64,000 nt of DNA, from assembly GCF_000685395.1 (NCBI RefSeq), contig NZ_AVSQ01000002.1, positions 1 through 64,000 on the forward strand, written 5' to 3'. Position 1 is the stretch's first letter, and every line of letters starts with the position of its first letter. The notes under the pieces were generated by a model. It was not told where the DNA came from. It did not search any database and worked only from the letters and a program-made list of their open reading frames with translations. This stretch comes from Candidatus Nitrosotenuis chungbukensis. Lineage in GTDB: Archaea > Thermoproteota > Nitrososphaeria > Nitrososphaerales > Nitrosopumilaceae. Both the position numbers and the translations under genes were made by a program. Shown piece by piece: positions 7,656 to 52,150 of the stretch.

Positions 7656-7746
7656 GGGCCGGTAGCTCAGCTTGGCTGGAGCGTTCGACTGATAAAATAT
7701 CGTTTCAGATATCGAAAGGTCGAGAGTTCGAATCTCTCTCGGCCCA
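7656..7746 (+). tRNA. tRNA-Ile (anticodon GAU) with a 16-nt intron
   Basis: The acceptor stem GGGCCGG/TCGGCCC, D arm and T arm (GAGAG-TTCGAAT-CTCTC) are regular. The anticodon stem is TTCGA/TCGAA and the loop reads CTGATA, then an insertion, then A, giving anticodon GAT at 7691-7693. The insertion of about 16 nt (7695-7710) sits at the canonical 37/38 intron position. Exact splice borders depend on the bulge-helix-bulge fold, which I did not compute. It lies a few bases before a convergent regulator gene. Confidence 0.9.
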
Positions 7747-9468: not shown

Positions 9469-9589
9469 TGCAGGAGGTGGGATTTGAACCCACGAACCCC
9501 TGAGAGACGGGATCACCCATTATTAGATCTTAAGTCCCGCGCATCCAAAAGCAACATTGCTTACTTTGGCCAGGCTCGGCTACTCCTGC
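9469..9589 (-). tRNA. tRNA-Leu (anticodon UAA) with two introns
   Basis: The 121-nt gene folds as a class II tRNA with acceptor GCAGGAG/CTCCTGC, a long variable arm and a T arm GTGGG-TTCAAAT-CCCAC. The anticodon loop reads CTTAAG, then 15 extra bases (9514-9528), then A, giving anticodon TAA with an intron at the canonical 37/38 site. A second insertion of 21 nt (9543-9563) lies inside the 3' strand of the D stem, between positions 23 and 24. Removing both restores CAAAGGCGCGGGACTTAAG, a normal archaeal tRNA-Leu. The D-stem insertion contains its own short hairpin (CCAAA with TTTGG, AGCA with TGCT). Confidence 0.9.
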
Positions 9590-50432: not shown

Positions 50433-51080
50433 TTATAGAGCTCGGCAGTAGTTTTCGTAACAGCTGTCAAGCAGATGGTTTTGTGCAGACAGGGATTTTT
50501 CTGCCACACGGATCAGTTCATCGTGTCTTTCTTCAGGTATGGCATCGATTATGTTTCTCCATGTTGCCGCATGTCGTATGTCTGCCTCCATGTGCAGCCT
50601 AAAGTATTCGGTCGCCTCGCTTGCAGTGATGCTGTAGAATTTTTCCAGCCCCTCCAGCTTTGTGTGGCTTATTTTTGGAATTTCTTTTTCAAACGCATAC
50701 ATTGCGACTGCGCCAGATTCCAGATTTGTGATTAACTGAGATAGTTCAGATACTGCACTGTTTGTTTTCTCCAGCCCAGAATAGTTTACAACCTCGGTGT
50801 CATTGACGCCCAAGGAAACTGCAAAGTTTATCCACGGTTCTAGGTGCTCTGCCTCTTCTGCCTGGTTTTCCTTGATTTCGGTGACTAGTGACTCTGGGGC
50901 AAATGACGCGATCGTCCCTACAAAGCCCGGGACTGCCTTTACCATCTGAAAGTATTCTTTTGAGTATCCGGCAAGTGAGTCAATTGAGAGCTTTCCATCG
51001 CTCCACATTTGGTAAAACGGGTGTTTTAGCAAGCTTTTTTCTTCTATGATATTATCAATTTTTTTTGAAAGTGAGTTCAT
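50433..51080 (-). CDS. CADD/PqqC-like (heme-oxygenase-fold) protein
   Basis: The 215-residue, all-helical protein has HPFYQMWSDGKLSIDSLAGYSKEYF, then ENQAEEAEHLEPW and a late HMEADIRHAATW. The Glu/His residues in these helices fit the dinuclear metal site of the CADD branch of the TenA/PqqC fold. CADD homologues from Chlamydia and Nitrosomonas can supply para-aminobenzoate for folate-like cofactors. The archaeal protein may serve the tetrahydromethanopterin pathway or another oxygen-dependent reaction. The thiaminase active-site Cys of TenA is not obvious. ATG 51080 is the start. Confidence 0.75.
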   Translation of the reverse strand: MNSLSKKIDNIIEEKSLLKHPFYQMWSDGKLSIDSLAGYSKEYFQMVKAVPGFVGTIASFAPESLVTEIKENQAEEAEHLEPWINFAVSLGVNDTEVVNYSGLEKTNSAVSELSQLITNLESGAVAMYAFEKEIPKISHTKLEGLEKFYSITASEATEYFRLHMEADIRHAATWRNIIDAIPEERHDELIRVAEKSLSAQNHLLDSCYENYCRAL

Positions 51081-51159: not shown

Positions 51160-51250
51160 GCTCCTGTGGTGTAGTCCGGTCAAGCATGTCGCCCTTTCAA
51201 GGCGGAGATCCCGGGTCCAAAATCTTATGATGGAAATCCCGGCGGGAGCA
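51160..51250 (+). tRNA. tRNA-Glu (anticodon UUC) with a T-loop insertion
   Basis: The acceptor stem GCTCCTG/CGGGAGC, D arm and anticodon stem TCGCC/GGCGG around CTTTCAA (anticodon TTC) are regular. The T stem CCGGG/CCCGG, however, encloses 22 nt (51216-51237) in place of 7. Removing about 15 nt restores a 7-nt loop, reading TCCAAAT, the simplest product I can make. The insert contains TCC and GGA that may pair in a bulge-helix-bulge. Splice borders are uncertain. It could be an archaeal T-loop intron. Confidence 0.85.
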
Positions 51251-51286: not shown

Positions 51287-52150
51287 TTGAGCAGTTTTTT
51301 GGATCGAAAAAATCTGAAAATAAATCCATTATTTGAGACGTATAAGGAGTATATTACAAGAATTGATCACGCACTCGAATCAGAGCTTGCACTGTATTCG
51401 CAGTCCGAGTTTATGCAGCCGCTCAAATACGCAATTGACGGCGGCAAGAGAATCAGGCCGCTGATTCTGCTTCTTTCCGCAGAATGCGTCGGAAAGATAG
51501 ACGAGCGCGCATACATTGCGGGATGCGCAGTTGAATTCTTGCACACAGAGTCAGTCATACACGATGACATCATCGACAACGAGACGTCAAGGCGCTACAA
51601 GGATCCGTTCCACATCAAATACGGGTACAACACCAGCATTCTGACTGGCGATTTTGTCCTGGGATTAATACTAAACATTTCATCTCGACTAAACGACCCG
51701 CGAGTCACAAAGGACCTGGCAAACACTGCGATGCTGATGAGTGAAGGCGAGGTCATAGAGACAAGGCTTGAGACAAGCGAGGACGTAACGTTTGACGACT
51801 ACCTAAAGGTCATAGAGTACAAGACTGCCGTTGCCTTTGAGACAGCCGCAAGGCTTGGCGCAATAATCGGGGGCGGTGACGAAGAAAAGATAATGGCATT
51901 ATCAGAGTATGGAAAAAACATCGGCATCGCATACCAGATAAGAGATGACCTCATAGACTGGAAAAACGAGGACAAGCTGTTCAACTTGCTTGTGAAAAAG
52001 AGTGCAGACCCCCGCGACGTTTTCAACCACATGGAAAAACTGCTAAAGGATTATGCAGACAAGGCAAACACTAGTTTGCGAAAGATTTCAGAGAGCAACG
52101 CAAAATCGCATTTAGAGTTCCTGCTGAAATTTACTACCCTGAAGGTGTAA
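51287..52150 (+). CDS. idsA: polyprenyl diphosphate synthase (GGPP-type)
   Basis: This 287-residue enzyme condenses isoprenoid units for archaeal lipid synthesis. The first Asp-rich motif is HDDIIDNETSRR near residue 93 and the second is RDDLIDWKNED near residue 222. The GGKRIRP substrate motif is at DGGKRIRPLILLLS. Product length cannot be inferred with certainty from the residues before the first Asp-rich motif, but geranylgeranyl diphosphate is the usual archaeal product. The start is TTG at 51287. The 3' end overlaps the convergent nuoN by 17 bp. Confidence 0.88.
   Translation: MSSFLDRKNLKINPLFETYKEYITRIDHALESELALYSQSEFMQPLKYAIDGGKRIRPLILLLSAECVGKIDERAYIAGCAVEFLHTESVIHDDIIDNETSRRYKDPFHIKYGYNTSILTGDFVLGLILNISSRLNDPRVTKDLANTAMLMSEGEVIETRLETSEDVTFDDYLKVIEYKTAVAFETAARLGAIIGGGDEEKIMALSEYGKNIGIAYQIRDDLIDWKNEDKLFNLLVKKSADPRDVFNHMEKLLKDYADKANTSLRKISESNAKSHLEFLLKFTTLKV

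Follow-up and report, generated by a model that had tools for sequence, protein, structure and literature searches.

A predicted bulge-helix-bulge intron in the T loop of the single-copy tRNA-Glu(UUC) gene of Candidatus Nitrosotenuis chungbukensis, and its covariation with exon position 55

Results

We analyzed the first 64,000 nucleotides of contig NZ_AVSQ01000002.1 of Candidatus Nitrosotenuis chungbukensis (hereafter the window), in which the gene for tRNA-Glu(UUC), at 51160-51250 on the forward strand, carries an insert within its T loop. The insert has the form of a bulge-helix-bulge (BHB) intron between tRNA positions 59 and 60, and can be expected to be cut out by the cell's tRNA-splicing enzyme. 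It interrupts an essential, single-copy gene, and the base pair that the intron forms with exon position 55 appears to have changed in this genus from U55-A to C55-G. Given the observed motif, which is conserved and covaries among relatives, together with empty alleles, a syntenic locus and the enzyme genes present, we put the probability of a spliced intron at this site, together with the change to C55-G in the genus, at roughly 95%.

Outside the T loop, the gene encodes a regular tRNA, with stems of 7 bp (acceptor), 4 bp (D) and 5 bp (anticodon), the anticodon loop CTTTCAA, a 5-bp T stem (CCGGG/CCCGG) and A as the discriminator base. The T loop is 22 nt long (TCCAAAATCTTATGATGGAAAT), compared with 7 nt in normal tRNA. 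Because of this enlargement, both ARAGORN and Rfam at its gathering score overlooked the gene in the window (Rfam score 21.3 bits against a cut-off of 29). A model built from the tRNA-Glu genes of intronless relatives aligned with it from end to end at 91 bits; other tRNAs reached at most about 58 bits. The cloverleaf and this match confirm a reading previously made from the sequence only, which had described a tRNA-Glu(UUC) with a 22-nt T loop, about 15 extra nucleotides and an otherwise regular structure. A genome-wide survey of tRNA genes found no second UUC gene. With a complete cloverleaf and a UUC anticodon, and as the isoacceptor's sole gene, the locus has the features of a functional tRNA-Glu(UUC) gene.

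The minimum-energy fold of the isolated T arm is an exact hBHBh' splicing motif, in which an outer helix (h) and an inner helix (h') flank the BHB (Table 1). Its two 3-nt bulges, AAA and AAT, lie on opposite strands and are separated by a 4-bp central helix (TCCA/TGGA). Canonical cuts, past the second base of each bulge, excise 51222-51236 and join position 59 to position 60, leaving a regular tRNA with a normal 7-nt loop, TCCAAAT, identical to that of intronless orthologues. When only the 15 intron letters were shuffled, an in-register 4-bp central helix with a 2-bp inner helix arose in 0.13% of 200,000 shuffles. The pattern of conservation across relatives is the one that a border at 59/60 predicts: the 5′ bulge always begins with two A and T60 is invariant, while variation is seen at the third 5′-bulge base (A, T or C) and at the second base of the 3′ bulge.

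The sequence-only reading had proposed a T-loop intron and suggested a search for this motif. That search returned the complete hBHBh' structure in the T loop, and intronless orthologues and motif-bearing homologues lend the proposal further support. Its simplest spliced loop, TCCAAAT with C at position 55, is likewise the loop of the orthologues. Its doubt about the border, by contrast, is removed, as the canonical cuts and the orthologues fix the border.

Table 1. Features of the tRNA-Glu(UUC) locus, in window coordinates.
Feature	Position	Strand	Basis
tRNA-Glu(UUC) gene, single copy, T-loop intron	51160..51250	+	cloverleaf reading, tRNA-Glu model match, genome-wide gene survey
Acceptor stem 5′ strand GCTCCTG, partner 51243-51249	51160..51166	+	sequence and fold
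Anticodon TTC (UUC)	51196..51198	+	sequence
T stem 5′ strand CCGGG, outer helix h of the BHB	51211..51215	+	fold
Exon T-loop positions 54-59, TCCAAA; C55 at 51217	51216..51221	+	same in intronless same-genus genes
Central BHB helix 5′ strand TCCA (exon), partner 51231-51234	51216..51219	+	fold, covariation
5′ bulge AAA, predicted cut after second A (51221/51222)	51220..51222	+	fold
Intron, 15 nt, ATCTTATGATGGAAA, between tRNA positions 59 and 60	51222..51236	+	fold, orthologues
Inner helix h' TC/GA, loop TTAT	51223..51230	+	fold; compensatory change in a related family
Central BHB helix 3′ strand TGGA (intron); G at 51233 is the partner of C55	51231..51234	+	fold, covariation
3′ bulge AAT, predicted cut before T60 (51236/51237)	51235..51237	+	fold, relatives
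3′ exon: T60, T stem 3′ strand, acceptor 3′ strand, discriminator A	51237..51250	+	
Upstream neighbour, TENA/THI-4-type protein, conserved flank	50433..51080	-	synteny showing locus orthology
Downstream neighbour, polyprenyl synthetase, conserved flank	51287..52150	+	synteny showing locus orthology

Genes for processing such a motif are present in the genome. Two different tRNA_int_endo proteins are encoded, one with Tyr, His and Lys at the expected catalytic places (YQRGPGVDHAPYLV...SVKK) and one without the catalytic His, a combination expected of an alpha2beta2-type enzyme. An endonuclease of the alpha2beta2 type has been assigned to Thaumarchaeota in a review, and endonuclease type correlates with the handling of non-canonical sites (PMC4090602); the two-subunit type encoded here is suited to such sites. 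The tRNA ligase RtcB is encoded by two genes, and a Pus10 gene is also present. A heteromeric alpha2beta2-type endonuclease would cut both 3-nt bulges of the tRNA-Glu(UUC) precursor, and RtcB would then ligate the exons to give the T loop UCCAAAU.

We compared the 14 genomes of the genus that have a UUC gene, this genome included. An intron of 15-16 nt is found in five of them, again counting this genome, and is absent from the other nine, whose genes are otherwise identical and have exactly TCCAAAT as their T loop. All copies lie between the same two neighbours, a TENA-type protein and a polyprenyl synthetase. Because intronless genes at the same locus read exactly TCCAAAT, the border and C55 are both real: C55 is an exon base, not the sign of a misplaced border. 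The species of the genus split into two clades in a PheRS-alpha tree, one with the intron and one without it, so that a single event accounts for the difference between them. This comparison, also suggested by the sequence-only reading, finds an intron shared among relatives; the empty allele belongs to sister species and is absent from this genome.

The intron extends well beyond the genus. Reading tRNA-Glu(UUC) in 66 further genomes of the family, we found a T-loop intron at the identical site in 19 of 22 genera, this genus included, in disagreement with the earlier remark that such introns are rare outside hyperthermophilic crenarchaea. It is missing in part of genus g15 and in both genes read from g22; genus g14 (Nitrosopelagicus-like) has a diverged, intronless tRNA-Glu(UUC), and no UUC gene was recovered from g9. 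T-loop introns also occur in families f2 and f10 of the order, and the class-level outgroups read have none in tRNA-Glu(UUC). The 67 intron-bearing genes comprise 43 distinct loops. All four central pairs form in each of the 41 loops outside f10. The inner helix is 2 bp or longer in every distinct loop, and the spliced loop is always either TTCAAAT or TCCAAAT. We propose that the intron is old in the family and would have been excised precisely from the same locus in one clade of this genus and elsewhere.

Some tRNA-Glu(UUC) genes of family f2 (L190-L194) carry both anticodon-loop and T-loop introns, one of the T-loop inserts apparently being much longer. One genome of genus g15 (G138, locus L177) has a diverged, intronless tRNA-Glu(UUC) of the g14 type, which may reflect transfer, replacement or a mixed bin.

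Position 55 is near-universal and is the most conserved base of the T loop. In these genes it lies within the splicing helix, and the exon base consequently co-varies with the intron. Exon position 55 is paired with its intron partner in all 43 distinct introns: 37 have T-A, six have C-G (genera g1, g3 and g17) and none has a mismatch. In a covariation analysis of 20 sequences, four motif pairs are altered on both sides, 100% of cells are paired, and 0 of 500 shuffles scored as high. A single C55 clade is rejected on PheRS alpha (p-AU, from the approximately unbiased test, 3.5e-5 for g1+g3+g17 and 1.8e-5 for g1+g17), a test that rests on one protein and carries the caveats of long branches and possible transfer. 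The double change from U55-A to C55-G thus probably happened at least twice. Within the same intron, the BHB has an in silico free energy of -11.1 kcal/mol with C55-G versus -8.7 kcal/mol with U55-A, a gain of 2.4 kcal/mol, and it is the predicted fold with a C-G pair but not with U-A, U·G or C·A. A route from U-A to C-G through a U·G wobble is possible; this intermediate was seen in no genome examined.

Inserts occur in three of the window's six tRNA genes, as the sequence-only reading had counted. Besides tRNA-Glu(UUC), these are tRNA-Ile(GAU) at 7656-7746 (+), with about 17 extra nucleotides in its anticodon loop, consistent with a canonical 37/38 intron, and tRNA-Leu(UAA) at about 9470-9586 (-), which ARAGORN and Rfam both overlooked. 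The latter seems to be interrupted twice, in or near the D arm and again, by about 15 nt, past the anticodon. Elsewhere in the genome, a probable tRNA-Trp(CCA) with several inserts (L286:421-567, contig C24) has no ARAGORN match and a low Rfam score, and a probable tRNA-Arg(CCU) (L283, contig C9) is interrupted by an insert between its D and anticodon arms.

Discussion

Several observations weigh against a BHB intron with a splicing-driven change at position 55. The inner helix h' of this tRNA-Glu(UUC) is only 2 bp long, two introns from family f10 form only three of the four central pairs, and for most relatives with U55 the lowest-energy structure predicted is something other than the BHB, though enzyme-free folding at 37 °C is a rough guide. 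The intron as sole explanation of C55 is weakened by tRNA-Lys: both tRNA-Lys genes of this genome (CUU and UUU; L007 on contig C3 and L008 on contig C2) read TCCGAAT, and thus have C55 with no intron. That standard tRNA finders overlook the tRNA-Glu gene might also suggest a pseudogene, or an assembly artefact with a random T-loop insertion. The sequence-only reading held that such a conclusion would follow if all homologues had a normal loop and the genome contained a second UUC gene; neither is the case. This is the sole UUC gene, the remainder of the tRNA is perfect, 19 genera share the insert's site and motif at a conserved locus, and sister species have a clean empty allele. We therefore reject a pseudogene and give this explanation next to no probability. 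As for how the two allele types arose, the PheRS-alpha tree alone indicates one change without its direction, and would equally fit a gain in the intron-bearing clade. Precise loss in the other clade is nevertheless the better reading, because the intron is present in nearly all other genera of the family. The identical site and motif there and in family f2 make a gain very improbable, as does the presence in the intronless species of C55, the exon partner in a helix pair that the intron itself completes.

The cause of C55 is a closer question. C55 also occurs in tRNA-Lys without a T-loop intron in several other genera, Lys(UUU) among them, and none of the Lys genes read, which are part of all Lys genes, has such an intron. 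This clade therefore tolerates C55, and the intron alone cannot account for it. These genes favour a history in which position 55 drifts freely to C irrespective of selection on the intron, with the intron base following to preserve the helix, and we give this history about an even chance. Against it, C55 in Glu(UUC) is seen only where the intron exists or existed, the intron has G opposite it whenever present, the intronless Glu(CUC) paralogue retains T55, and C55-G adds about 2.4 kcal/mol to the splicing helix. These points suggest instead that splicing drove the pair change, with C55-G strengthening the BHB and C55 staying in the tRNA gene where the intron was lost. More tentatively, and at somewhat less than even odds, the splicing motif would shape the mature tRNA: selection for a more stable BHB helix would have put C55, together with its intron partner, in place of U55 in at least two lineages, C55 would persist as a scar after precise intron loss, and tRNA-Glu would have an elbow without pseudouridine at position 55 (Psi55). 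An editing of C55 to U in the mature tRNA would restore a normal elbow, and C8 in Methanopyrus tRNA is a precedent for editing. Since C55 appears to be tolerated, being found in several tRNA species and in different genera, we consider editing quite improbable, and C55 presumably stays unedited.

As a BHB intron at a known non-canonical site, the insert itself is ordinary for archaea; what is unusual is the exon-intron covariation at position 55. In its short length, its hBHBh' structure and the two-subunit endonuclease, it resembles the non-canonical archaeal BHB introns described previously (Marck and Grosjean; Sugahara et al.; PMC8450103), with no difference in kind. For Thaumarchaeota, the tRNAscan-SE 2.0 report counts 107 non-canonical tRNA introns with a clade-specific BHB model (PMC8450103). 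The permuted tRNAs of Thermofilum pendens have a BHB at the same 59/60 junction (PMC3218864), but their halves are permuted, whereas tRNA-Glu(UUC) here has a plain cis intron. In Cyanidioschyzon merolae tRNA-Ile(UAU), an hBHBh' intron likewise lies in the T loop and blocks Psi55 formation by Pus4 in vitro (PMC9602550). That tRNA is eukaryotic, however, and its exon base 55 is U; the C55 of tRNA-Glu(UUC) cannot become Psi unless edited. Our literature searches, with subscription papers mostly outside their reach, found no text naming this tRNA-Glu T-loop intron, nor any description of exon-intron covariation at position 55 or of C55 persisting after intron loss.

For genome annotation, tRNA finders that lack a model of T-loop introns will report a tRNA-Glu gene as missing in these archaea. 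The locus also provides a natural experiment, in which an intron at a deeply conserved site is present or absent at one locus in sister species. Here an exon base of the splicing helix doubles as a near-invariant base of the tRNA elbow. Were C55 a scar of the splicing motif, Glu codons would be read by a tRNA whose elbow is unable to carry Psi55. The locus makes it possible to test whether constraints from splicing can alter a universal position of tRNA, and whether tRNA functions in the absence of Psi55.
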